Shown in pieces: positions 17,964-63,600 of a stretch of DNA of 64,000 bases (position 1 is the first letter of the stretch; each line of letters opens with the position of its first letter). Below the pieces are notes generated by a model that was given only the letters and a program-made list of their open reading frames with translations, ran no database searches and was not told the DNA's origin. Source of the DNA: Byssothecium circinans. Its lineage: Eukaryota > Ascomycota > Dothideomycetes > Pleosporales > Massarinaceae. The position numbers were made by a program, and so were the translations under genes. Location of the stretch: the NCBI GenBank assembly GCA_010015675.1, contig ML977006.1, positions 481,958-545,957 on the forward strand, in the 5' to 3' direction.

Positions 17964-20176
17964 TCACGTCATATGCGGCAGCACAGAGCGCATCTTGTTG
18001 AGGCCCTGGAAGAACTCACCCCAGTAACCTGTCATGTCCTGGAACTGCATTATCCAGTCCACAAAACTGTGGAACAGCGGCAAGTCCCAATCGTCGTTGA
18101 CGATGTCGGCTGCGTTCAGCTGCTGGCCGTTGCCCTCCGCGTGCTTCATGGCCTCGAGCGCGGCCTCGATGGCAGGACCCATCTGCATGAAGTCGTCCGT
18201 GGTGAGCTTCTCGGGGCTCTTCTCGGGAGTGGAACCCCAGGCGTTGAGCATGTGGCTCAACTCGCGGCCAGCGGCATTGAAGACCCGGCTGGACATGGTT
18301 TCGGCACGGCGTCCTTGGGCCTTTGCCTTTGCCTTCTCCTTCTCCTCGAAAGAGTCTGTGACCTTCAGGTATGCGGCAAAGAGCTCGTTGAGCTCTTTGT
18401 GCACCTCGTGATCCACGTCGGGGGCGTTGGGGAGTACCATGCCAGCCAGCCTGCCCTGCATTTCTACGAATGCATCGAAGGACCAGTACTGCGCCGGGTT
18501 CAGGTCCGGATGGGAGGTCGTTAGGGCATCCAGCGTGAGACCCGCATGCTGGAGGACCCGCACACCCTGAGTTGCCCAGCGCTAATGTTCTCAGCAGTGG
18601 GCAAGGTGGTCACTACGTCCACAGCATTGCCAAAGAACTCCTGGAGCCTGCGCATGTCCATCACGTAGCGCAGCTCAGGAGTACCGCCATCCACAAGCAT
18701 GGTGTCGCAGCCGTAGGTGGCCCACATCCTGCGTCCGAGCCGCGACAGAGTCTCCGTAATGACGGAGAAGATGCGGAACTCCTTCGTGTGCTGCGCGTGG
18801 CTCTCGAGGAACGAGGCGAAAGCAAACATCTGTCCCGCATTCCAGCCGGCGGCGCTCAGACGAGCAGAAGACAAGGTCGCCTTTCGCACCTTGGAAAGGC
18901 AGGACGTCAGCGCCGACAGGAACTTGCTCAGGCGCTGGGATTCTTCCGCTGCCATGTTGCCTCCCTTCCTCAACTGGTCGATGGAGAAGCTGAGGTTGTT
19001 CTCGCGGTAGAAGAGGAAGTAGTCCTTGACTACCTCCCACTGCTTCGCCAGGAACTTCGCCTTCGTGCGCTGTGCCTTTGCGCCATGGGAGACTAGACGG
19101 CGGTGGAGCTGGCGGAGCTTGGGCGCGTGTGTACCCTTCTTGGCGGCGACGTGGGCCAGGAACCGCGTCTGAGTCTTGGACAACGCGGCCATGGTGTACT
19201 TAAACGACTTCTTGTTTGAAGTCCACTCCGCGCTGATCAAGGGGTTTGCGGCGCGGTGGATCGGGGCCTGGCTGCGACGGATGGTGTGGTCGCGGACAAA
19301 GTCGAACTTCTGGCATGCTCAGAAGAATTATTCTAAATTAAGAGAGATGGCGAGCTTACATTGCCACGATGACGGCGAGAGGTGGCCTGAGATGCTGAGG
19401 GGATGTTGCGCAGGGCGGTCGGGTTCACGCCTGCTGCGCTGCTAGTCATGGCCGCAGGGACTCTGTTCACAACGAAGGAGTTGCTGCCAACCATGCCCAT
19501 GCCAGCGTTGGCGGCGGTGGTGGTATTGGCGAGGGCTGGGGAACGGAAACCAGACTGAGCCTGGGTCTGGGTCGGGAGTTGGATAGGAGCCTGCTTGTGC
19601 ACAATGTCAGTGTCCACTGCTTTGACCTCTTAAGCATCATAAGTGTGAGCAGTGAAGGTACATACACTGTCGCCAAAACCAGCGTTGATGGCATTGCTGC
19701 CGAAGGTGCCAGCGCTCGAAGCCGTGCTGCTGTCGCCGAAGCTACCAGCGTTGATGCCATTGGAGGCGCCTCCGCCCAAGCCGCTCGGAGTGGCATTCAT
19801 GCCGGCACCGCTGGAAGGGTCAGAGGCCGAGGCCATGCTGCTGCTTCCAGCTCCGCTGCCTTTACCGCCAAGAAGGTTTATTTGGGACTCGACGGAGGGG
19901 TCCTGAAGTGAATATTAGCATGTAGTCCAACAATGGATTACACTGTGAGGAATTGGGATCTTACCTCCTTGCCCGTACCGAGCTGCCCGAGCACATCGCT
20001 TATGCGCTCTTTCTTTGTCTTCTGCGAGATTGAAGTTAGCACGAGGTACGCGTAGGATTGAGCGAAGCAGTGCGCGCGCTGGGAAATGGAGAGAGCAATG
20101 GCGCAATCACGAGGGAGGGGAGATGACACACATTGGAGCGAGTGGTTGCGGCGCTGCTACTACCGAAACCGTTCAT
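17964..20176 (-). CDS. Unrecognised protein with Gly/Ser/Ala/Asn-rich N-terminal third
   Basis: I do not recognise the family. The start at 20176 (MNGFGSSSAATTRSN, context CAAGATG) fits clean splicing: introns 20022-20131 and 19903-19964, one near 19622-19668, one near 19309-19360, and 18567-18616. The last has donor GTAGTG and acceptor CTCAG, and it removes what first looks like a frameshift. Exon 2 is charged (KTKKERISDVLGQLGTGKE). A low-complexity stretch rich in Gly, Ser, Ala and Asn follows, then a Gln/Pro part (PIQLPTQTQAQSG). The C-terminal two thirds is a helical, ordered-looking region with many Lys, Arg and Leu, from FDFVRDHTIRRSQ to the end. It contains a short coiled coil (EEKEKAKAKAQG). 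A nuclear or RNA-linked role is possible from composition only. Confidence 0.7.
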
Positions 20177-48666: not shown

Positions 48667-48748
48667 GGCCCAGAAGTGGACCTCTGCATGAAAGTTGTCG
48701 CAATGGTCCATTTCTGGACCACCTTGTAGGATGGCCCGAAACTGGGCA
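48667..48748. promoter_or_regulatory. Palindrome cluster 1, upstream of the recombinase gene
   Basis: Three 16-bp inverted repeats of form GGYCCR-N4-YGGRCC: 48667-48682 (GGCCCA GAAG TGGACC), 48705-48720 (GGTCCA TTTC TGGACC, perfect) and 48733-48748 (GGCCCG AAAC TGGGCA). They lie 160-240 bases before the ATG at 48908. Confidence 0.7.
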
Positions 48749-48907
48749 ATTCAGGCAGGCTGGTCCCGTTGGCTAGCCCGTAGCCCTTTGGCTCCTCTTG
48801 CTATGATGTTGCCTCGATGTTGAGCGCAGCAGGCCTTTTTCTCTCTCCTCCTTTCTCTCGTTCTTCTGTCCCATTCTTCATTCCCTATCCTCTTGCGCCA
48901 ACCCATC

Positions 48908-51900
48908 ATGCCAAGGGCTAAAAAGGACTTCATCCGGCTGGCGGAAGAGAGAGGTGGCTCTGAATTACCTCCCTCTGTCAACGGACAGCGAATTCTCAAA
49001 CGACTTGAAGATGGGACACTCAGATCATATCAAGACAAGGTAGACGAATGGGAGCGGTTAGAACATATTCATTCCGGTCGACATTTCAATGGCTGACTTC
49101 TGAAATAGTTTCGTTGAATCGGAGCGCATAAAACATCCTGATCAACCACCTCCAACTGTCTCTGATTTGAAGGCTCTCAAAAAATTTGTCCGCATGATGG
49201 CGCTTGCCATCGACGGAACGAAGGGGTTGAATGCCTGCGTAGAGACCGTTAGGAACTATTGTAATCGATTCACAGCAGGTTGGAAGAGAATACATGAAGC
49301 AATACGGCAGGATCTCGCCGAGAGTGTCACAAACGTCAGCGTAAAGCCCACCCCTTCCATAGACCAGCACACTGATTTTTATGCAGTATATCTACGGTGA
49401 GCTGATGGAAGAACTCCGATTACTGAGAGAAAAGAAGCCGCGAAGATATGCCAACAGCAGCCATATCACAAGCTTCGGAAAGCGTTATTGGGGCGGTGAT
49501 TGGAAGGAGTATGATAGCCCTGCGACTAGGCTGAATGATTGGGATCTGTTCTTGGTAGACGTCTTCTCCTCGGCCCGTATTTTGGATTATATCGAATCTA
49601 CTTGCAGAAGAGGCACCAACCGAGGACTGAAATTCAAAGTGAGTCGCTAAGGCTTGAGGACTTGGTCCGGTGTGTTAACCGCCCCATTTGGAGCAGGACG
49701 TGATGTTCATATGCTTCTGGAACAAATATGGGAAGCCCGAATTTGCCGTTCAACGGACGAAAGACGCAAAAAACTTTTCTAGAGTTGCCCAAAGCAAAAA
49801 GTATCCACCACTGACAAGCTGTCGCCGAGAGATTTACTGACACAGTCCTTTGTAGGCCGAAGAACTCTATCGCAGAAGGTTGCGAAGAAGCACCACTCCT
49901 TACCAATTCACTCCTCTTTACTTTAGCAAGGCTTCTTAGCAAGGGTGCATTCCGCGATTACAGTACTATTGAGGATTTACTGCACATCGTGCCTCCAACC
50001 GGTACCAAATCGTTCCATATTGCATGGAGAGAGGATGTTCTTGAGCATGCCTTCTACCCGAATGCGAGCCAGAATGGCTCTATCGAAACAGCAAGTGCCT
50101 TTCACAAGAGACTTATGGAGGCGGGCATTCGTGCTGGTTTCCCAGAGCCTCCAACTATACATGACTGGAGAGCAAACGCTCTGTTCTTGATAGATACATG
50201 AGTAAAATTACCCTATCCTTTGCAAAGTTGCTAATATATCTACTCATAGACAAGCATTACTCCGAATCCGACCGAATGCGAGCTGGAGCTCACGAGAACC
50301 CGAACACATATGGTCAAAGCTACCAATCAAGCGAAAGCCGCGTCGATGGTCAAAACACCTTTCTTGGGAACGAAAGGAGAGAAAATGTGAGCGATGCTTT
50401 CCTTGAGCTAAGCGTCCATTACACGCCAAATCTCGCCCAGCGACTTCCCGCCGAGGAGAGGTACAACCTCCAAAGGAGACAGGACTATCTTGAGCTTGAA
50501 GATGAAATTGAGGCTTTGCGAGATGATAAGAATGCAGAGGCGAAAGACCGCTTTAAAGAGCTTCAGCGAATGAAGAGTCGGTTGATGGACGAGGCTTTTC
50601 AAGAATGGTAGAAAGCGCAACCGTATCGGCCAGAAGAACCGCCGCTGTACCATTACGAAATTTTCGATCGTTGCTGGTTCATGATGCCGGAACGAGATCG
50701 CCTAGCAACTAATCTCTTCAAAAGTGCTAAGTTACGAGACCCTTTGGGACTTTCGGTCTTGCGCGACTTGATAGCCCTACTTGAGAAGAATGCGGAGGTT
50801 GAGTTCAGGCCAGGCTTAGAAGAGGACAAATGCGTCTGCCCAAAGGTGAAGAAGGAACCACAAGACGAAGCTAATGTGACTCCCAGCAAATACGACTGGA
50901 GACACATATACAACTGCTACAAGAAGGATCGCTGTAGTAAGCATGGCTTTGCAGAGCTGTGCTTTAGATGCAACGAATAGATCTTTTCAGAGCAGGGATG
51001 GAGAGGTCACTGTCTCGGTCACCTGAAGGATCTGAGTTCCTTTCCAACTCACTTTGACCCTCTAACTACCCGCAGCGGAGTCCTCGCCACTCCAGGACAC
51101 TGCCCTTACTGTCTCAGAGACGAAAGGCTGCCACCTGAGAAGCGGATGTACCAGTACCTGAACCGAGCGATGTGGCTGTCCTATATCCAGAAACACATAG
51201 AAGGCTTAGAGAGGTGTGAGAGAGAAGGAAAGAATACTGTGCGATGCCCTCATCCCCACCCGCGTTGCCCAGAATCCTTCGACACCATTCTGCATTTACG
51301 GTTCCATTTGGAAGATGTCCACGGTATCCCTATGGCCAAAGAGTCGAAGGTGAAGAAGAGGTCGAGACGGGGAGGTGAACAGGCACGACAGCCTCCCAAG
51401 AAGCAGCTCAAGAACGAGTGTGGCTCGTTTATCAACGTTACAGCAGCAACGATGAAGGCTCGTTTAAGGAAGGCATCCAAGGCTCCATCGGGTTGTTCGA
51501 CAAATTATCAACACTCAGCTGATAGCGTTTGGGGTGAGGATTGGTATTCCGGTTCTGACCCGCCACCTTCATCGACATCTAGTGATGCACAACTTGATCC
51601 GGTACCAGATATCGACTTTGTTCTGATAGATGAAGTTGAAATCTCTACACAACCACCTCTTACCGATGGTCCGATACCCTTCTTGGATCTCACTTCGGCA
51701 AACTATGGGTTTCAGGAAGGGCTTTTGGAAGCCAATGTCATGCCGGAACATGAGTCTGTCAGCTCCGGGAGTTCCTCCGGTCTGTCTACCCCTTTTTGCA
51801 GTTCAAACAGTAGCCCATTGTCATCAGTGTCCAATGGGGATCTGATTGATTCCCTGAACGACATTGAACTCGGCGCTGTCGATGTCATGAACCTCGCCGC

Positions 51901-52285
51901 CTCAGGGGAGATTCCTCAGTCGACAATCTGCAAAACAACAAAGAAGAAAAGTGCGTATTAACCGCCTGGAGCTCTTATCATAAAAAACTGACCAAGGACA
52001 GATGATTCATGTGCAGAAGCTGCGGCAACTGCTATTGAGGTGAACACGCGGCAAGTTGAAGAGCTGGCTCCTTTGACTTCTGCGATTGCTCAGCCGCCTG
52101 CTGTAGACCCAGGAGACAACCAATGGGAAGTTGAGGAACTGCAGGGAAGGCGAAAGGTTGGGAGAGGTTTCATGTATCTTGTGAAGTGGTTGGGATATCC
52201 CGAGACAGAAAGCACCTGGGAGAAAAGGAAGGACATCAGCGCTGAGCTTGTGATGGCCTACGATGCGATGCATCCTTTAGATTAG
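48908..52285 (+). pseudogene. DUF3435 tyrosine recombinase (Starship-captain family) with C2H2 finger and C-terminal chromodomain; damaged
   Basis: DNA strand-transfer enzyme family that mobilises giant fungal Starship elements. Introns: 49057-49108, 49335-49386, 49639-49696, 49801-49855, 50194-50249 and 51951-52001. The joined protein begins MPRAKKDFIRLAEERGGSEL. It has LKALKKFVRMMALAIDGTKG, FSSARILDYIE, the HxxR box in IHDWRANALFLID, and SESDRMRAGAHENPNTYGQS with the likely nucleophile Tyr. The conserved C-terminal region follows, with HCPYCLRDERLPPEKRM and a C2H2-type CPHPHPRCPESFD. An acidic Ser-rich linker comes next, and a chromodomain ends the protein (WEVEELQGRRKVGRG, FMYLVKWLGYPETESTWE). 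Damage: TAG at 50609-50611 and 50978-50980, and intron 5 starts AT instead of GT (50194). All three are single transitions as made by RIP, so this copy is probably dead but recently so. The chromodomain exon is intact. Confidence 0.82.
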
Positions 52286-52403
52286 TCCGAAATAATTACA
52301 ACGGCGTTTTACAGAGTGGGTTAGACACGCATCTGGCCTTCGACGGCATTCAGTCATCTCATCTGAGTGGCCATTATCACGTGGATCAATAGACTACTTT
52401 TTC

Positions 52404-52433
52404 GGTCCGAAATATGAAGCCCAGTTTTGGGAC
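52404..52433. promoter_or_regulatory. Palindrome cluster 2, between two convergent genes
   Basis: One good site at 52418-52433 (AGCCCA GTTT TGGGAC) and a half-site GGTCCG at 52404-52409. The cluster sits between the recombinase stop and the stop of the small coiled-coil gene. It is the only one not clearly upstream of a start codon. Confidence 0.5.
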
Positions 52434-52543
52434 AGTGCAAAGTTAAAGTTGCAATAGCCCATGCTACACACCTTTAAATTGGTACTCCAGGCGTGCCATT
52501 CATTATGAAGGAATATTTAACGAATCTAATAGAGTCGACCATT

Positions 52544-52855
52544 TCAACGCCTCCTTGCACTCTTCAGTGACACTGTGTCTGCTCTGGTGCTCTTTCTTTT
52601 GCGTTTCTTGAGCTCCCGTACTTCCTCTTTGACAGTATGCATCTCGTCTTTCATCTCAACCATAGCGTCGTTCATTTCCTTAAGATAGGCAACATAGCCG
52701 AGCAGTTGCTCAATACTGGTGGTTATCATATCGAAGTCTTCTTCCACCAGGTCGGGCATCTCTCCGTCATGCTCATCAAGCCAGTCTGTATACCAGCTCC
52801 AAATATCGTCTAACTGCTCAGAGTGTAGCTTTTGTGGCGGAGGATTTTCCCACAT
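52544..52855 (-). CDS. Small coiled-coil protein, 103 residues, unrecognised
   Basis: Single-exon frame MWENPPPQKLHSEQLDDIW, ending in a basic tail (ELKKRKRKSTRAD). A Leu/Met/Val heptad pattern over residues about 45-85 (LLGYVAYLKEMNDAMVEMKD and on) predicts a coiled coil, preceded by an acidic stretch (DEHDGEMPDLVEEDFD). The KKRKRK patch could be a nuclear signal. It is convergent with the recombinase gene. The next palindrome cluster lies 75-143 bases before its ATG, which supports it as a real gene of the accessory block. Confidence 0.6.
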   Translation of the reverse strand: MWENPPPQKLHSEQLDDIWSWYTDWLDEHDGEMPDLVEEDFDMITTSIEQLLGYVAYLKEMNDAMVEMKDEMHTVKEEVRELKKRKRKSTRADTVSLKSARRR

Positions 52856-52929
52856 GATTTGGAGGGATTGCGAATATTTACAATAAAGGAAGAGCAGCTA
52901 TGCTCGTCTTTTATGTCAACACGTTGAAG

Positions 52930-52998
52930 TGCCCAAAATTGGACCACGTTCCATAGTGGCCAAAGTTTGGGTGAATGCTAGTGGCCTGATTTCAGTCC
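52930..52998. promoter_or_regulatory. Palindrome cluster 3, upstream of the small coiled-coil gene
   Basis: Three sites: 52930-52945 (TGCCCA AAAT TGGACC), 52958-52973 (GGCCAA AGTT TGGGTG) and 52983-52998 (GGCCTG ATTT CAGTCC). All have the 6-4-6 layout. Confidence 0.65.
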
Positions 52999-53169
52999 AC
53001 AAGTTCCAGTATACCGCATTGGCTCTTGGCTCTCCTCCTGCCGATGGTCCGGGAGAAAGTACTGCGAATGACGCTGCTGCCTCCCAGACTGCTGTCCACT
53101 CTATGGCGACAACGAGCCGGAAGACTCCCCTTGACTCCGGTCTTTACGCCCTACGCTGCATCAGGAACA

Positions 53170-53293
53170 GCCCCAAGTCTGGGCCTCCATGTCTTATTCC
53201 ATGGCCCATTAGGCATAAAGTCTGTCCTGCTAGCTTTACTACTGCGTTGGCGGAAGATAATTCGCGTCTTATAGCAGGCCCAGCCATGTGAGG
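53170..53293. promoter_or_regulatory. Palindrome cluster 4, upstream of the ankyrin gene
   Basis: A full site at 53170-53185 (GCCCCA AGTC TGGGCC) and two GGCCCA half-sites at 53203 and 53278. They lie 240-350 bases before the ATG at 53522. Confidence 0.55.
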
Positions 53294-53521
53294 CTAACCC
53301 TGGCGTTGGCTGCTTAATCGAGGTTCTTCAAGTGGCAAAGTCTGTATGCATAAATTTTCCTAGGTTTAATTGCTAGCTGATGTCATGCGCAGGTCTCTTT
53401 CCGCCTATATATATCCCTCGGCACCTCCGCTCCAGTCCTCATCACTTCTCTCCATCTCTTCGATTCTCTTATCACGGCAACGATATCAAGCAACCAGCAA
53501 CGCTTCGTATGTACACCCAAC

Positions 53522-54580
53522 ATGGACATCATCATCCGAAATATCGCCTTGATTGCGGCATCGAACGGGTACGAGCTAGAGATCGAATATTTGCTCTCTA
53601 CTAGTTACTTTCAAACCAACTGGACGGACGACAAAGGTCGAACGCTGCTCTATTTAGCCGCAGATGGAGGTCACGATGAGGTGGTATATCTATTACTACA
53701 GCAGCCTGATATTAAGACCGATACGAGAGACGAATCGGGCCGCACACCGTTGGCTATAGCCGCATTCAAAGGTCATGAAGAGGTGGTTAAGCTTTTGCTA
53801 GATCATGGCGTTGATGTCAACCCGGGGGACAAGGACGGCCGGACACCATTGGCTTTGGCTGCACACCAAGGCCACTACCGCTCAGTTTATGAGCTGATTG
53901 ACCGAAAAGATGTTGAGATGGAGACAACGGATGAAAAAGGCAATACACCGCTGGCACTCGCCGCCTCTGAAGGGTGCTGGAGAGCGGTAGTGCGTTTCCT
54001 GGACCGGCCTTGTATCGATGTGGATAGAAAGAATGAAGATGGTCAAACGCCGCTCTCTTTAGCCGCTCAAGGAGGCCATAGCTGCGTGGTCGAGGAAATC
54101 CTGCGGCAAAAGAGGATCGACCTCAACTCAAAAGATAAGAATGGTCGAACGCCACTCTCTCACGCTGCTACCTCAGACGATGCCACGACAGTCAACTTAT
54201 TACTCCAGCGGAGAGGAGTTAAGGCAGATCTAAAGGACAACAATGGTCGAACACCTCTATCCTGGGCAGCTACCATGGACTCTGACAATGTGGCCGCACT
54301 ATTCCTCCATCTAGGCAACGTCAAAACCGAATCAAGGGATAAAAATGGTTACACGGCGTTGGATTTAGCCAGGTCACATGGCTCTTCGAAAGTCATCAGC
54401 TTGTTGTCTGATTGGGATGATATTCAATCCTACGTTGCAGACTGTTATTCCAAATATGCACTTTCCGACATTCTAAAGAAAGCAAGAAAGAAGCAAGGAA
54501 ACCATCTAAAGCGTGTAGGTGGAAGAAAGGAGTTTGTCAGCAAGGGAGGAAAAGCGCCACGCACTGAAAGGGAAAAGTGA
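53522..54580 (+). CDS. Ankyrin-repeat protein, 352 residues
   Basis: Single-exon, intact protein of about eight ankyrin repeats (residues 20-300), for example GRTPLAIAAFKGHEEVVKLL, DGRTPLALAAHQGHYRSVYE, NGRTPLSHAATSDDATTVNL and NGYTALDLARSHGSSKVISL. Each starts with a DxxGxTPL turn. A short helical C-terminus rich in Lys follows (ILKKARKKQGNHLKRVGGRK), possibly a nuclear signal. There is no kinase, NACHT or PNP-UDP domain upstream, so it is a free-standing repeat protein rather than part of an NLR. Ankyrin repeats bind partner proteins; the partner is unknown. A palindrome cluster precedes it. The start is the first Met after a short pyrimidine-rich leader. Confidence 0.85.
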   Translation: MDIIIRNIALIAASNGYELEIEYLLSTSYFQTNWTDDKGRTLLYLAADGGHDEVVYLLLQQPDIKTDTRDESGRTPLAIAAFKGHEEVVKLLLDHGVDVNPGDKDGRTPLALAAHQGHYRSVYELIDRKDVEMETTDEKGNTPLALAASEGCWRAVVRFLDRPCIDVDRKNEDGQTPLSLAAQGGHSCVVEEILRQKRIDLNSKDKNGRTPLSHAATSDDATTVNLLLQRRGVKADLKDNNGRTPLSWAATMDSDNVAALFLHLGNVKTESRDKNGYTALDLARSHGSSKVISLLSDWDDIQSYVADCYSKYALSDILKKARKKQGNHLKRVGGRKEFVSKGGKAPRTEREK

Positions 54581-54599
54581 TGAAGCTATCATCGGCATC

Positions 54600-55607
54600 T
54601 TATTCTTCCTCCCCGAAATTGCTTCTCGTCAATGGACAAGCCAGCTCTTTCTCCGGGTTTGTCAAGTAGTGTTCAATGTCTTCAGATAAGAAACAGTTTT
54701 CATCGAATTCCGGAACTTTGATGTGCCAAAATTCATTCATTGCCCCAATTGTTCCAGCTACCTCAGCCCTCTTAAGAGCTAGACACTCTCGCATCTCCTG
54801 CAGAGTTTCTATCCAAGAACCTGAGTGAAGGAAGCAGTTCCTCAGCGTCAGACTTTTGAGTGTCGCGCTATGGCATTCAAGAAAATGTAAGAGTTCTTGT
54901 GCGGTGCTATCAATGCCGGTTAAGTGCAGACTCTCAAGACGCGGCCAGTTTGTTGCTGTGTCCAGCGCATATTCGAAAGGAGCGCAAGACCATATCATGT
55001 CGTCCTCGGAAAGCCCTGAGTAGAAATTCAGATTAAGATGCTGAAGTATCCGAAACTGGTTCAGGAATTTCCTTAGCTCGCACGTTAATAGGATTTCCCG
55101 ACACTTCAATTGGTCTTCAAGTGTGTCAATCGTCAGGCTAAGAGTGATGTTTCTTAATGGTAGCCATGCTTGAGTCTTAACTAGGATTATCCTGTGGAGG
55201 AGTCTCCAAGTTATATCCTTAGTCCAGAATTCCTGTAAGCATATTCCCGAAGATCCTTCGACGAGGTTTGTAAGCGGTCGTGGTGAGATTAGCTCGTAGC
55301 TAAGCCCTCCAGTCAATTCGAATGACGCTACTATAGACCTAACCGGGAATGGTTCTACAGCCCTGATGACCGATGTAGCATCAAAATTACCATCCACCAC
55401 GATAGCCGTCACGAAGTCATCCTCGTTTGGCATGTCTGATTCCCAAATAAACACTTCGATGTATCCAACTCCATGCTCGGTCGGTCTCTTGATAGTAAGC
55501 CGAAAACCATCAGTAGTCTGTGCCTTTCGAGTGTTGATCAGTATATTGAGTACTTCTTCGGTGGTAGCGTCCATATTGGTGGATGTGTCAGTCAGAGGTT
55601 TCGGCAC
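54600..55607 (-). CDS. LRR-like protein resembling the C-terminal half of fungal F-box proteins
   Basis: Single-exon, intact, 335 residues. The body has a degenerate leucine-rich pattern: RILQHLNLNF, WPRLESLHLTGID, TLKSLTLRNCFLHSGSWIET and LQEMRECLALKRAEV. The run 'ATLKSLTLRNC...SW.ETLQ' followed by an acidic end (EDIEHYLTNPEKE) is the usual tail of ascomycete F-box/LRR proteins. No F-box is visible at the N-terminus, which instead reads MPKPLTDTSTNMDATTEEVL. The neighbour on the other strand (55902) does have an F-box, so the pair may be halves of one rearranged gene or two unequal relatives. They share the palindrome cluster between them. Confidence 0.65.
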   Translation of the reverse strand: MPKPLTDTSTNMDATTEEVLNILINTRKAQTTDGFRLTIKRPTEHGVGYIEVFIWESDMPNEDDFVTAIVVDGNFDATSVIRAVEPFPVRSIVASFELTGGLSYELISPRPLTNLVEGSSGICLQEFWTKDITWRLLHRIILVKTQAWLPLRNITLSLTIDTLEDQLKCREILLTCELRKFLNQFRILQHLNLNFYSGLSEDDMIWSCAPFEYALDTATNWPRLESLHLTGIDSTAQELLHFLECHSATLKSLTLRNCFLHSGSWIETLQEMRECLALKRAEVAGTIGAMNEFWHIKVPEFDENCFLSEDIEHYLTNPEKELACPLTRSNFGEEE

Positions 55608-55740
55608 CTGGAGATCAAGTTAAGTAGTCTATTGAACTTTCCCCCAGTGAGGAGAATCTGCTAGAGTATATGCGGAAGTCTTGATCTGCTGTGTCACTTT
55701 GAAGGGGTCGAGTTGACGGATCAAAGCTGTTAACCGTTGT

Positions 55741-55820
55741 GGACCGAAAACGGGCCCTTTGGGTGGCCCAGATATGGGAAGTTCAATCAGCCCCTTGCTG
55801 CTCTGGCCTGAATTTAGGCC
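55741..55820. promoter_or_regulatory. Palindrome cluster 5, in a divergent promoter
   Basis: Three sites: 55741-55756 (GGACCG AAAA CGGGCC), 55765-55780 (GGCCCA GATA TGGGAA) and 55805-55820 (GGCCTG AATT TAGGCC). They lie between the divergent starts at 55607 (minus) and 55902 (plus). Confidence 0.7.
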
Positions 55821-55901
55821 AAGCTGGCTCGGAAGCGGTTTATTTATCCTTGAAAGGGAGGTCCAAGCATTGATCATGCAAAAAGATCTTTTGGTGCCAA
55901 A

Positions 55902-56921
55902 ATGTCCCGCTCACGGGATGATCGTGGGAACGTGTTAGATGAAATGACAGATCTCAAGGCTCAACTCATCTTTCTAATAGACATGGAGCCAGACCAAGTA
56001 AGCCGGACTCTTGTAAGCGCCAAAGAAGAAACGCGACTTTCCATTTTGGAAAGAATTCCAGTGCTCTATCGTCGAGAAATGGACCGTCAAATCGCAGCTT
56101 TCATCAAGGTTAGCAACGATCACAATCCCCAATTCCGCCTGGATATGTTACCTTGCGAAATTTTCTCCACTATCGCCGGGTATTTGCCACTTGAATATAT
56201 CAAAATATTCAGATTATATTCGCAGACTCATCAATTAGCCGAATATGCACTAGGACAGTACTACCGGATAGCTACAGTCGATCTTCGTTTTGAAGCAGTT
56301 GAGAAACTCCGAACTTTCTTTCAATATACTATCTCGCAGTATACCCAAACGCTTATTCTCCTGGAGCCACCCCTCATTGAGGACTGGCCTGATTGTTTGC
56401 CAGTCCTAAAATCCTGTCGAGATATACTTGAGGACGTTGGTCGCAATATTAGAGTTGTATTTCGAAGCTGCAATAGGGGTTGTCCGGACTTCTTTCTCCG
56501 CCAATTCAATCAATATAAGGGGCCAATTGAGCTTGAGAATATTCGACCACATCAGCTAGAATTGGACTTCCTGAACCTAAGATCTGTCCGATCTCTCGAG
56601 CTAGTGCTCCCAAAGCCTTTTAGTCTTTGGTCTAAGGGAACTGTACTTGAGGCGCCAATTCTACGTTCGTTTTTATCAAATCAGAGCCCAAAAAAGGAGC
56701 TTTAAGTAGTACATGAGCGCGACCTGTCGGCTGAGGAGGAACAATTTCTGGACAATCTCGCAGAAAGCGGAATCAAAATAAGAAAAACATATGTCGATTC
56801 CGAGGACGCTCTGGAACAGTCTAGTCAGAAGTGCTACGTTGAAATTACGAAGCGACCGAGAAATATGAATGTATTTAGAAAGCGCGCGAGTAGGATGAAA
56901 TGCCAGAACGCCTCGAGATGA
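55902..56921 (+). pseudogene. F-box protein gene with an internal TAA
   Basis: Frame from MSRSRDDRGN to a TAA at 56703-56705 (267 residues). It then continues in the same frame for 71 codons (VVHERDLSAEEEQFLDNLAE to a TGA at 56919-56921). The F-box is at residues about 80-120: FRLDMLPCEIFSTIAGYLPL, EYIKIFRLYSQT. F-box proteins bind Skp1 and bring targets to the SCF ubiquitin ligase. The body then has a short degenerate LRR-like region (LRSVRSLELVLPKPF). CAA to TAA is a direct RIP product, so the TAA is probably a recent nonsense mutation. A 267-residue product remains possible. Confidence 0.65.
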
Positions 56922-56992
56922 AGGAAGAATTTACTGCTACTTGTCTAAAGAGAGGCTTGTGCACAGCTCTTCTACCATAGGCAATAGTTTAT

Positions 56993-57628
56993 CTAAGCCG
57001 TGAAGATATTTTGAAACGTAGTAACTGCGTAGTGCTGAACTTGCTTTTGAAGTGTTTGTTGCGTTCCATGCAGTTGATGTACTTCCTCTTCCAGAGTCCA
57101 CCGTCGTTCAGACTCGGCGACCGCGTGTGCCTTCCACTCTTGTAACTGTCGTAGGAGACTAGCGTTTTCTTCCTCCAGCTGACCAATTTTTGCGGAGAAG
57201 CTAATATCTGGATATAGCTGCTTATTCGTTAGACGGTTCGCTTGCAAATTGTATCTTTTCTTACTGAAGTACCCGCGCTCGGCGGATTTTCTGTATGACT
57301 TGTAGCAGGTATAGCCTCAAAGCTGACTCCGACGCCTTCAGAAAGCTCTCTGTAAGCGTTGATTGAGTGATCACTCATATTCTTAGAGAAAATGCCTGAA
57401 AAGAGCTCTTCCTTTTCTGGTAGAACTTTCCATGCATACGGATCGTTCGTGTTAGGAATAAGCCGGACTTGGGACGGTTTTACCACAATACCCAGTCTGC
57501 TTTCTTCAATCTTGTTAGCTCATTCCTACGTGTGGGAATTCTTACTTACGAATATGCTTAGACAGCTTTTGTCGGCACTGTTCGCGTAGCTTTCGCCGTT
57601 CAACATTACTTTGTCGCGTTGGAGCCAT
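56993..57628 (-). CDS. Small coiled-coil protein, unrecognised
   Basis: Three exons: start at 57628 (MAPTRQSNVERRKLREQCRQ, very basic), a short intron of about 46 nt (donor GTAAGT, branch GCTAAC), and a middle exon with GIVVKPSQVRLIPNTNDPYA and FSGIFSKNMSDHSINAYREL. A second intron of 44 nt ends before QLYPDISFSAK, and the final exon is a coiled coil (IGQLEEENASLLRQLQEWKA, then RRWTLEEEVHQLHGTQQTLQ) that ends at 56993. About 170 residues. The basic N-terminus followed by a coiled coil loosely recalls bZIP layout, but no bZIP basic signature (NxxAAxxCR) is present. It is divergent from the hydrolase gene, and both share a palindrome cluster. Confidence 0.6.
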
Positions 57629-57692
57629 ATTGATTGTGACTTACGGATAGAGACCATGGTGCCTTCAAGCCATTTTGAAGGTATCCTGAGGT

Positions 57693-57761
57693 GGCCCAGT
57701 TTTGGGACTCATTGAGTGAGCCCACTTCTGGGATGACCTTGAAGTGGTACGGATCTGGGCC
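57693..57761. promoter_or_regulatory. Palindrome cluster 6, in a divergent promoter
   Basis: Three sites: 57693-57708 (GGCCCA GTTT TGGGAC), 57719-57734 (AGCCCA CTTC TGGGAT) and 57746-57761 (GGTACG GATC TGGGCC). They sit 65-133 bases before the minus-strand start at 57628 and 21-89 bases before the plus-strand start at 57782. Centre-to-centre spacing is 26-27 bases. Confidence 0.72.
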
Positions 57762-57781: not shown

Positions 57782-59200
57782 ATGCCAAGGAACCACATGC
57801 TCGGCCGAATTGCCTCTACTTGGAGAATGATTCGGACAGTCAAATTGCTTGCGATTGACTCAACAGATAGTAACCTCTCTTTTATGGAGAAAATGCGCTA
57901 CCTAGGAATTGCCCAGAGGTTTAAAGAGAGCTTTAGCTATTGGTGGGCTGGATTATCGTCCGAGGTATCTGAGCAACGCATTTTATCTTCCATACCGCAG
58001 GTCCAACAAACTCCTACGCACGATGCCAGAGCCGTAGATCACAAGACCATTCCAACTGAGATATCAGAGCATTGCAACCGACAGTGGCATCTACACCGCG
58101 TTAAATTGCACGGTAAGAACTGTGTTTTGAACGAGTTTTCGATAGAACGCCTTAATGAAGAAGTGGAGAACAACCATGTTATGCTACACGGCTATGGAGG
58201 CGGGCTCTGCTTCTTCTACTAGAACTTTGAAGCACTATCTCGAGCACATGGTTGGCGTCTATACGCCTTAGATCTACCGGGCATGGGGCGCAGCTCCCGC
58301 CCTCCCTTTAAGATCAGTGCTAAGAATCCAGAAGGACAAGTCGCTGAAGCAGAGCATTGGTTCATCGACGCAATAGAGGAATGGCGAGTCGAACGAAAGA
58401 TTGAGCGTTTCACCCTTCTCGGTCATAGCTTTGGAGGATACATTGCTACAGCATATGCGCTGAAGTATCCGGAGCATCTAACAAAGCTAATACTAGCCTC
58501 TCCGGTAGGAATATCTGAAAATCCCTACAAAGCAAGGAGAATGGCATTAAACGGTAAAGCAGCCGATGTACAAGTTCCCAGAGAACCTCTTCCGAAGTGG
58601 CTGAAATTCGTATGGGCTGTCAAAATCTCACCTTTTACTTTGCTCCGGTGGTCTGGACCTCTCGGTCGAAAGCTCTTTTCCATTTGGTTCAAAAAGGAAT
58701 TCAAGCAGCTCCCACCAAAAGAATTACAAGCTCTTCACGACTATACCTATAGCATATTCAATCTACCGGGGAGTTCCGAGTATGCACTTACTTATATTTT
58801 CGAGCCTGGGACATTTGCCCGTCTGCCACTGATTCGGCGTATTCAAGATGTAGGCACCCAACGCTATGATTGCCTTGCCAATCCTCAGTTGTGTAAACAA
58901 TTGGGTGATACGGCTCAGCACCACTGGGTAAATGGTTTTTCATTTGTTTTCATATATGGTGAAAATGACTGGGCTGACATAGAAGGTGGGTATGCCACAG
59001 CGCGGATTATGAATAAGCATGAAGGGCAGAATTTGGATGGGACCATCAAACAGGAAAGACGGGAGAACAGGAGTAGTGGAAAAGTAATAATTCTGCCTGA
59101 TATTGGGCATTACGTCTGCTTCCACCCTCAGTTTAACAGAGTCGTACTAGATGAGATGAAAGGCATAGCCACATCTACGGCAAAGGACAGCTTATATTAG
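57782..59200 (+). pseudogene. Alpha/beta hydrolase (CGI-58/Ict1/Cld1-like) with one internal TAG
   Basis: Lipid-acting serine hydrolase or acyltransferase family, related to yeast Ict1 and the cardiolipin lipase Cld1. The frame runs from MPRNHMLGRIASTWRM through VMLHGYGGGLCFFY to a TAG at 58220-58222, and resumes without shift as NFEALSRAHGWRLYALDLPG, MGRSSRPPF. The nucleophile elbow is intact (TLLGHSFGGYIATAYALKYP). YGENDWADIEGG carries the usual acid-residue region, and IGHYVCFHPQ carries the catalytic His. The HxxxxD acyltransferase motif of CGI-58 relatives reads HYVCFH, so the Asp is lost. CAG to TAG (Gln) is the likely cause of the stop. Translation could restart, but a product lacking the oxyanion-hole strand would be inactive. 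The end at 59200 looks natural. Confidence 0.8.
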
Positions 59201-60622: not shown

Positions 60623-63600
60623 CACTGTCCGCAACAAGCAAGTCAATCAATCTTGGGGTCGTCGATTGGCTTGCTTGTTGGCGACGTTGTCGTCGCTTGA
60701 TTGTAGCTTGATTGTTGGTGTTTTCGGGCGGCTTAATTGCGACTTGATTGGTAGATTGATTAGATTAGACGCCAAGAGATTAAAGTTATATACAACTACA
60801 GTGGCTCGATAATCCACTCCTGTATATTGTAGTCTTGTACAATATCCTCGTCTGATACGTCCTCCCTATTGTTCCCCTCTGTACTCTTGTTGTATTGAGT
60901 CTTAAAGCCTGCTCTTGTCCACGATCGTATTAGTTAAAGAGCAGCTAGTAACTCACTGCCAATAGCTCATCTTTTAGGCTCGAGTAAGTCGCTAAGCTCA
61001 CTGAAGAGCCTCTCACACTCGCAGCTTGATGCTGGGATTGTCAGTATATCGATCGCAAACTGGCTTAAACACGGGTATTTTGAGCGCATTTGAATCCAGT
61101 AGGCGACTGGGTGACTATCACCTAAGTACTGCTCTCTGCTCTACTCTGGCTCTTGTGTCCTCCATCGCTCGTACTCGTCGTCGTGAGCTGCCTTGTCTCT
61201 GGTGTTGTTGCGGCGTACAAAGGCGCCAATTACGTTATCTATCCCGCTTGTAATTGTTGTTGTATGAGGATGAGGTTAAGGGCGTATACGCTGAGGTTTA
61301 TACGTCTGCTAGAGTCGCTGAAACCCAGCGTTGGCAGTAGTGAGCCACTCTGGCTTGTCAGCCCAGCTGTTCTCGCAGTAATACTTGTAGTAAGGATGGA
61401 GGCAGACAGCAGCGTAGTAGGCAGGCGATCTATCAAGCTTATTATAGTACTCGTTGGCCTTGCTCTAGGCAGCGCGTAGGTTGATATGAAGGTGGTCCTC
61501 TGGCGCGTCCGTGTAGTTGAAATTGACTTACTCGTATAGCCGCGTGCGCGCTTTGAGCGCGCTGAGTACGTACTCAAAGACGGGTATAACCTCGTATATA
61601 GCACTAAACTTGCCTGCTTTACCGCGACCCTTAAGCCGCTCTATAGCAAGTTTTAGCGGCTCTAAGCAGTCCTAGTACTCTGTTATTACTGCCTAATCAG
61701 CAGCTATAAGACCAGTTGATCTCATCCAACTTGGAGCGTCTAAGAGCTTATTGCCAACTTGGTTTGCGCGCCTATCGTCAAGAGAGACGCGGCTAATATA
61801 GTGCTCGGCGTAGGAGTTATAAGCAGCTTAAAGTTAAGTTGCGCGTGTAAAGGCAGCGTAGTACGAGTTCCAGCGAGTAACAACAGGCTTAACTGGCTCG
61901 AGTACTCGGAGACGCTCTCCAGCAGGCAACTCAGCGTTTGCAGCTCGCTGAAACTCTCTGAAAAGCTCATACTGCTGTGGCGTTTTAATGTAGTTGATAA
62001 CGTTAATGAGCACGCCTAACGGCCTATCTTTACGCTATTCGCGCAAGTACAACTCCTCTTTATCAAGCTGCTCAGCAGCGTTGTTGTATGCCTCTTTGTC
62101 CTTGCCAAATATAATTGCCTGGCCGATAAGACTAAGCGTGTAAAGGCCGCAGCGGAGGCGTCGATAAGTAGCGTCAAAGTCGTATACGCGAGCGAGCGCA
62201 GCGATTGCAGTGTCGTTATTCGTAGCGTTATCGAGTACGAAGTAGCCTAGCTTATCACTAGTAATACTGTACACCTCAAGCGTTTTGACGATAGTACTTG
62301 CAATAGCTTCGCCTGTATGCGAGCCTGCCAGCTGTAGTAGAGCGATAGGCAAGTCTTGTATTACTCTAGAAGCATCAGCAAAGTGCGCAACAATTCTAAA
62401 GAACCCGCGCTTGCCGCCCCTTGTCGTCCAGCCGTCGAAGCTTACATGTATTTTACCTGCAGCTTCTAATAGGGCCTGGACAACTTAGGGCTGTATATAG
62501 CGGAAAAGGCGCATCGCGTATATAGCAACACTGCGAGGACTCACCCACAACGCTGCCTCAGCCTCTGGGTTTGCAAAGTTTATTATCTCTCGGAAGGATA
62601 GCCTTGCAAGTAGCTCCATTGGCAGGTTATTGTCGAGTAGGCAGAGTACTGTAGCTTATTGAAACTGCTGTATATTGAAGTTGCCCATCGCGTTAGCGGC
62701 GTGTTGAGAGACCTCAACACTAGCCTCGAAGGCTTGTCGTAGAGAGAGCTGCCTACTAGACTGTTGCTGTTATTTTATACCGCTCTTTGTAAGCCGATGG
62801 CCATGTCTCTGCTGGCCGAGATAAGTAGCTGCAGCTGTTGTGGCTCTTGTAACGTTAAACATGCCGCTGCTGCCAGCGTTAATAGCCTTGTGAGTATGGC
62901 AATACTTGCATACAAACCATACTCGACTTAGGTATTTACGCTCAACAACGCGATAGCCATGTCGATATATCCAGCTTTTGACGCGCCGCTGAGTTGTAAG
63001 AGGCTTCATAAAGCGTCTTAACCGCTCCTAGTTAATGCCCTTAAAGTTATCGCTATCTCTATTATTATTATCTCTATCGCCACTTTTAGCTTCAGTAGTT
63101 GCTGCTGTCCCAGCCTGGCTGCCCTTAGTAGGTGCGACGATCTCTGCCTCTGGTTGCGACTCTAACAACTGCGACTCAAACGTTGTAGCCTGGCTTGCAG
63201 CAGCTAGAGCTTGCCGGGGTGATAATGATTGTCGAGAAACGCGTTGAGATGAGGGCTCCGATGAGCGCGTACGTTTAGTGGCGGGCGCAGCAGCCGTGCT
63301 AGTAGAGGGAGCTCGTGAGCGTTTAGCCATTATAGGCAACTCGAAACACTAAAAAAAACTCATTAGTATAGGCAGTAGAGTCGAGAGAAAAGCTCTGTAA
63401 ACGTACTGTCGAGCACAGTAGAGATCGGTGCAGCAGGCAGTAGCGTGTAGGCGCACAGACGGGTCTAATACAACTTGGGATAAGCTAACTGCAACACCAA
63501 GAAAGTATCGTGAGATCAAAGATCTCCTACAATTTGCAAGCAAGACAAGCAAGTCAATCAAAAATTACTAGTTGGCTTGACTTGCTTGCAAATTTGAGTG

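Follow-up and report, generated by a model that had tools for sequence, protein, structure and literature searches.

Grouped palindromes before the genes of a Starship-type block in Byssothecium circinans: candidate operators of one DNA-binding protein

Introduction

What does a 16-base palindrome do when it recurs, in groups, before one gene after another of a single accessory block in the fungus Byssothecium circinans? The window, by which we mean the whole stretch of 64,000 nucleotides analysed here (C30:481958-545957, in an assembly that comprises 48.4 Mb in 109 contigs and has the genes of a filamentous fungus), holds such a block, whose genes include a captain-like tyrosine recombinase of the DUF3435 family. 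A sequence-only reading of the window had described the palindrome as GGYCCR-N4-YGGRCC and had proposed that a dimeric protein controls the block. We conclude that the palindromes are probably the operators of one dimeric DNA-binding protein, which would coordinate the genes of one class of Starship-type giant transposons. We read them as operators because the groups lie near gene starts, in divergent promoters and before unrelated mobile-element genes.

The regulation of Starships is an open question, and a sequence tag common to unlinked element genes would be a direct handle on it. Such a tag would predict which genes respond together, permit pulldown of the regulator and be scannable in every sequenced fungus.

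Results

The observation as a whole was confirmed, the described letters being present at all 14 coordinates. The statement that groups lie upstream of every gene was borne out for seven window genes, but it fails for a single site at 52418..52433 (half-site at 52404; held-out score 16.4). Gene starts in the window were chosen, and distances from site to start computed, by hand from the letters; sites are given without strand, and held-out scores, in bits, come from matrices made without the group in question. Group A (48667..48748; sites 48667, 48705 and 48733, with starts 38 and 28 bases apart) lies 160-241 bases 5' of the recombinase ATG at 48908 and scores 15.6, 13.4 and 17.5. Group C (52930..52998; sites 52930, 52958 and 52983, spaced by 28 and 25) lies 75-143 bases before the first coiled-coil gene and also within the divergent promoter of the ankyrin-repeat gene, and its scores are 17.1, below 8 and 9.4. 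A further site at 53170..53185 (13.1), accompanied by half-sites at 53203 and 53278, is found 337-352 bases before the ankyrin gene. Group D (55741..55820; sites 55741, 55765 and 55805, spaced by 24 and 40; scores 12.1, 15.0 and 15.0) lies in the divergent promoter between the two F-box-like genes, 167-246 bases from the start of the first and 82-161 from that of the second. Group E (57693..57761; sites 57693, 57719 and 57746, spaced by 26 and 27; scores 18.9, 8.7 and 12.9) likewise lies in a divergent promoter, 65-133 bases from the second coiled-coil gene and 21-89 from the hydrolase gene.

Taken literally, GGYCCR-N4-YGGRCC is too loose a description. It occurs in the window exactly at two places (48667 and 48705), with one mismatch at six more and with two at 21, and three of the 14 listed sites (52958, 52983 and 57719) depart from it by at least three mismatches. 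A symmetrised matrix was therefore made from the 14 sites, and in this form the motif is strong. The matrix consensus is close to GGCCCARWWYTGGGCC, and the middle four bases, which had been called free, prefer RWWY (purine, A/T, A/T, pyrimidine). When each site was left out in turn, 11 sites scored 12.5-19.2, two were modest (8.4 for 52983 and 8.8 for 57719) and site 52958 reached only 3.5 bits, which leaves it doubtful and unsupported. When whole groups were left out and their intergenic stretches scanned, 11 of the 14 sites still reached at least 12 bits, whereas window positions 1-48000 contain 0-2 sites of that strength by the same matrices. Outside the block, the full matrix finds two window sites of at least 12, at 18480 (12.1) and at 59094 (12.6, within the hydrolase frame). 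The remark that nothing comparable was seen elsewhere thus stands within the window, as judged by the matrix, but not for the genome, where contig C79 has groups of its own. For scale, an order-3 Markov sequence of genome size (48.4 Mb) gives 221 sites of at least 14 and 42 of at least 16; the 9.2 kb block holds 11 and 9, respectively, by the full matrix, and these counts are hence not independent of its training.

A single dispersed repeat does not account for the groups, since no flank match between groups exceeds the site: among ten stretches (six from the window, three from C79 and one from C5), the longest match was 15 bases and was the site itself. The exception is a triple on C79 (L077), which is a 27-base tandem. 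Strong forms of the motif also proved uncommon, with 31 places in the genome at no more than one mismatch to GGYCCARWWYTGGRCC and 14 in Markov sequence. The matched variation of the half-sites that the sequence-only reading had described is weak overall. Among 24 sites, including those on C79 and C5, columns 5 and 12 co-vary (p 0.034), but columns 6 and 11 give p 0.095 and the remaining six column pairs p 0.47 or more.

A second locus was found on C79, a contig absent from the training of the matrix. The pattern GGCCCANNNNTGGG has 55 rows in the genome, three of them in the window; among the 52 others, 50 were read together with their surroundings, amounting to 49 distinct places, the remaining two being one each on C53 and C70. 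By the window-trained matrix, a second site of at least 12 within 100 bases is present at three places, L076 and L077 on C79 and L042 on C5. Measured to the assumed gene starts, the first C79 group (13.7, 9.1, 16.7 and 18.3) is 57-183 bases upstream of a patatin-like (PLP-type) gene and the second (17.7, 15.7 and 15.3) 18-87 bases upstream of a ferric reductase (FRE) gene. A single site of 19.1 stands between a DUF3723 gene and a divergent kinase-like gene, 106-121 bases from the start of the former and 130-145 from that of the latter. Four C79 sites other than the seeds reach at least 14 (19.1, 15.7, 15.3 and 18.3), against about 0.04 per 8 kb in simulation, although those of 15.7 and 15.3 form the 27-base tandem with their seed and are not independent. 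The exact sequence GGCCTRRWWYYAGGCC occurs twice in the 48.4 Mb, once as site 55805 of Group D and once in the C79 PLP promoter, and nowhere in Markov sequence of that size.

Three of the four genes behind these sites are of kinds typical of Starships. DUF3723 scores 483.5 bits, and FRE is above the cut-offs for FAD_binding_8 (44.6) and NAD_binding_6 (26 bits) and below that for Ferric_reduct. The PLP gene carries GGGxRG, seen by eye, and has relatives 38-65% identical, its Patatin score of 13.4 bits being below the cut-off; all three genes are thus present on C79, PLP by its motif and relatives. The kinase-like gene is also below its cut-off (Pkinase 22.7). No DUF3435 match was found on C79 in a six-frame search that scored the best candidates only, and the contig, at 93.9 kb, may be cut.

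The third place, on C5 (L042, C5:1582226-1585239), has two strong sites, 18.3 and 18.7, 52 bases apart. A frame for Abp2 (ARS binding protein 2; 163.3 bits) has its first ATG 734-801 bases 3' of them; the gene is of host-like appearance and may have earlier exons. A further pair, 77 bases apart and 44 kb from a DUF3723 relic, lies at C18:380890-380982, the letters being read for one of its two sites; simple arithmetic gives about 0.002 expected pairs within 100 bases among 32 such sites.

Counted over the genome, four patterns occur 55 (for GGCCCANNNNTGGG), 115, 31 (for places at no more than one mismatch to GGYCCARWWYTGGRCC) and 32 times, against 79, 91, 14 and 12 in Markov sequence, which is 0.7-2.7 times. 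Counts of reversed patterns (1437 vs 1154, 55 vs 16, 115 vs 40, 31 vs 11 and 32 vs 10) carry no weight here, as reversal changes the dinucleotide make-up of the motif; the Markov counts, which are less favourable, replaced them. Part of the excess of 32 over 12 is accounted for by a subtelomeric-looking repeat. What distinguishes the motif is its grouping before element genes.

Discussion

A shared motif stands near gene starts above background, as is expected of the operators of a regulon. This interpretation rests on the observations that one motif is shared, occurs in groups, precedes seven genes of the window, does not depend on repeats in its flanks and recurs on C79. Most of the operators would form groups of two to four in which the starts are spaced by 24-40 bases, a few would be single, and they would lie within about 20-350 bases of the start codons of element genes. 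We infer that a protein binds the motif and that its binding would set the transcription of the element genes as one regulon. The predicted binder might be carried by the element class itself, where the coiled-coil proteins are the candidates, or it might be a host regulator tapped by the element. For the latter role the Abp2 homologue is a candidate, given the two sites 5' of its gene. No DNA-binding family was recognised in the coiled-coil proteins, as judged from pieces of both and from two relatives of the second. The proposal of the sequence-only reading that a dimeric protein controls the block is, with the C79 replicate, the best-supported one, and as an interpretation it is partly supported.

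It is tempting to go further, if only tentatively. One Starship class may carry its own regulon, with the operator GGCCCARWWYTGGGCC, mostly grouped, before its recombinase, DUF3723, FRE, PLP and accessory genes. A single regulator, possibly a host protein of the Abp2 family whose gene is itself preceded by this operator, could then wake or silence whole elements, and separate elements would respond together.

Several results weigh against a common regulator of Starship-type genes. Upstream of six other DUF3435 genes (on C40, C60, C42, C91, C33 and C35) there are 0-2 purine/pyrimidine matches each, which is background, and the same holds for the damaged DUF3723 genes on C29 and C65; the pattern used, tolerant of repeat-induced point mutation (RIP), recovers 15 of 24 known sites and so could miss some. 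Five of the six DUF3435 genes have stops, that on C35 being open. Among the 23 DUF3435 loci scanned, there was no matrix site of at least 11. Within this genome, the motif does not mark Starships as a rule, since these other DUF3435 and DUF3723 upstream stretches are without enrichment, and the enrichment near DUF3435 loci for which the sequence-only reading had proposed a test was not found in the six stretches. Upstream of a PLP gene on C1, whose matched pieces are without stops, 801 bases hold two weak sites (6.7 and 7.2), 25 bases apart. Within the block, several genes are broken, and site 52418, between the 3' ends of the convergent recombinase and first coiled-coil genes, has no promoter position. 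On C79, the FRE frame is open through its three sites and has in-frame ATGs, so that its start and promoter position are assumed; a later start is favoured, not proven, because damaged FRE relatives align only from residue 57 onward. It was the motif that led to the C79 places, although no selection was made for the adjoining genes. Finally, a motif-blind count of gapped palindromes had no clear 6-4-6 peak and was uninformative, and the motif is not strikingly enriched genome-wide.

The sites could instead be operators of a host factor with an ordinary host regulon, in which the block and the C79 genes are mere members and the link to Starships is incidental. The two strong sites 5' of the host-like Abp2 homologue would suit such a factor, as would the 26 of 31 places at no more than one mismatch to GGYCCARWWYTGGRCC that lie off C30 and C79, a number somewhat above the Markov 14. 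However, among 47 distinct places outside the window and C79, that on C5 alone has a second site of at least 12 within 100 bases, and the strong single sites at the four loci inspected (L046, L070, L071 and L064) lie inside open frames, as chance sites would. We consider this explanation unlikely.

It is very improbable that the palindromes are the recombinase's own sites, whether arm-type or accessory sites used in excision or sites where a complex binds and keeps the element silent, as the sequence-only reading had allowed in naming the recombinase as a possible binder. One group does precede the recombinase gene. Yet groups stand before gene after gene along the promoters of two loci, not at one or two places, and they are missing from the stretches upstream of the six further DUF3435 genes; the lack of a DUF3435 match on C79, in a search of best candidates that also missed the window recombinase, weakens this binder further. 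The N4 spacing is also unlike that of recombinase core sites. Chance clustering or a dispersed repeat is scarcely credible, for although the literal consensus is exact at just two places, motif-blind palindrome counts are unremarkable and the L077 group is a tandem repeat, held-out matrices still recover the window groups, C79 replicates them and the longest match between flanks is the 15-base site itself.

Among known systems, temperate phages and integrative elements have multi-operator regulons, with repeated palindromic operators before their own genes; here, the genes are eukaryotic and separately transcribed over kilobases. MADS-box proteins have CArG sites, CC(W)6GG, and TCP factors, which are plant proteins, have sites GGNCCCAC. 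The CCA-N4-TGG core of the window motif resembles CArG and its GGCCCA half-site resembles the TCP site. Unlike CArG, however, the GGCCTR half-sites break the core and the outer GG/CC arms differ. The motif does not conform to the CC(A/T)6GG core: positions 7 and 10 are G or C in many sites, and the GGCCTR sites lack a CC...GG core.

Another comparison is with Starships themselves, whose gene set comprises the DUF3435 captain, DUF3723, FRE, PLP and NLR. The window recombinase is of the DUF3435 family and C79 has DUF3723, FRE and PLP, but the window captain is divergent, seemingly with a Chromo domain, and no common promoter motif was found described for Starships. DUF3723, FRE and PLP are listed among prevalent or notable Starship genes (PMC12134995). 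In Aspergillus fumigatus, co-expression modules made up mainly of Starship cargo are described, the kind of outcome that a common operator could produce; these modules are expression-based, and no cis-element is named for them in the section that describes them (PMC12153272). According to the same section, the expression of captains is still to be elucidated. Elsewhere in that paper it is suggested that the direct repeat of the element Tardis may be a transcription-factor site (PMC12153272); its letters, CTACGGAGTA, are unlike the window motif. No report of such a motif was found in the Starship literature, in a search that left bioRxiv and most subscription papers outside, and nothing relevant was found on the half-sites or on Abp2.

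Genes of the block and minor observations

The recombinase gene (48908..52285, + strand) has introns inferred by hand. Its exons 1-6, joined by hand, score 50.7 bits to PF11917 (cut-off 25.8), whereas single exons are below the cut-off at 17.9 and 20.8 bits, and a six-frame genome search for DUF3435 at E no greater than 1e-3 missed the gene. By the joined profile match it is a divergent relative of the DUF3435 captains. The final exon of the gene, which would follow a canonical intron, seems to be a Chromo domain (48 bits, 51992-52285). The relative P0003 ends in the same residues as the window frame that runs into the Chromo intron, which suggests that the gene structure may be conserved. At least two in-frame stop codons interrupt the window gene; P0001 and P0002, which are metagenomic relatives, lack them. 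Eight other contigs hold relatives of one recombinase exon, in every case with stops, and no relatives of the PLP gene or the recombinase were confirmed in viral-contig scans.

The first coiled-coil gene (52544..52855, - strand) is an open frame with no Pfam family above cut-off, and the ankyrin-repeat gene (53522..54580, + strand) is an open frame of 352 amino acids with 264.6 bits to Ank_2. The leucine-rich/F-box-like gene (54600..55574, - strand) has no Pfam match and one further weak match in the genome, on C11 (28.3 bits). The frame of the second F-box-like gene (55902..56705, + strand) is apparently ended by an early stop. The second coiled-coil gene (56993..57628, - strand), with introns inferred by hand, has relatives in other fungi (Zopfia, Xylogone and Cadophora) and, within this genome, on C65 (without stops), C29 and C54; C65 and C29 also carry copies of DUF3723 and FRE with many stops. 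The alpha/beta hydrolase gene (57782..59200, + strand; Abhydrolase_1, 64.1 bits) has a stop that interrupts its frame. None of the 16 DUF3723, 4 FRE and 6 PLP matches in the genome lies on C30, so that the window block is without these Starship accessory genes. By the genes that it does hold, the block would belong to the Starship world.

In-frame stops are apparent in the recombinase (48908-52285), the second F-box-like gene (55902-56930) and the hydrolase (57782-59200), the ankyrin frame being open, and the block looks like a decaying element. At C54:7199-10655, a distance of 3 kb separates damaged relatives of the window recombinase and of the second coiled-coil gene, so that these genes may travel together.

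Elsewhere in the genome, C35:37420-38747 holds a DUF3435 captain in three matched pieces without stops. Over the 1.5 kb preceding its first match, the matrix finds no site of at least 9, and there are 2 purine/pyrimidine matches against 0.8 expected. Upstream of the C1 PLP gene, 3 purine/pyrimidine matches against 0.5 expected were left uncounted, since they do not coincide with the two weak matrix sites. A DUF3723 match on C9, which by eye adjoins a P450-like frame, has one weak site (6.8) and was set aside. The four strong single sites inside open frames were set aside as chance, that at L064 lying, by eye, near a transposase-like frame. An identical 16-mer, AGCCTAAATCTAGGCC, occurs near contig ends at C1:2096778, C3:1711056, C4:52879, C5:1485, C8:1402239 and C8:1406047, and it is probably part of a subtelomeric repeat that resembles the GGCCTR form of the motif by chance. 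To the right of the block, at about 62000-63350 of the window, frames are present on the - strand which, judged by eye, we take to be hAT-type transposase-like.

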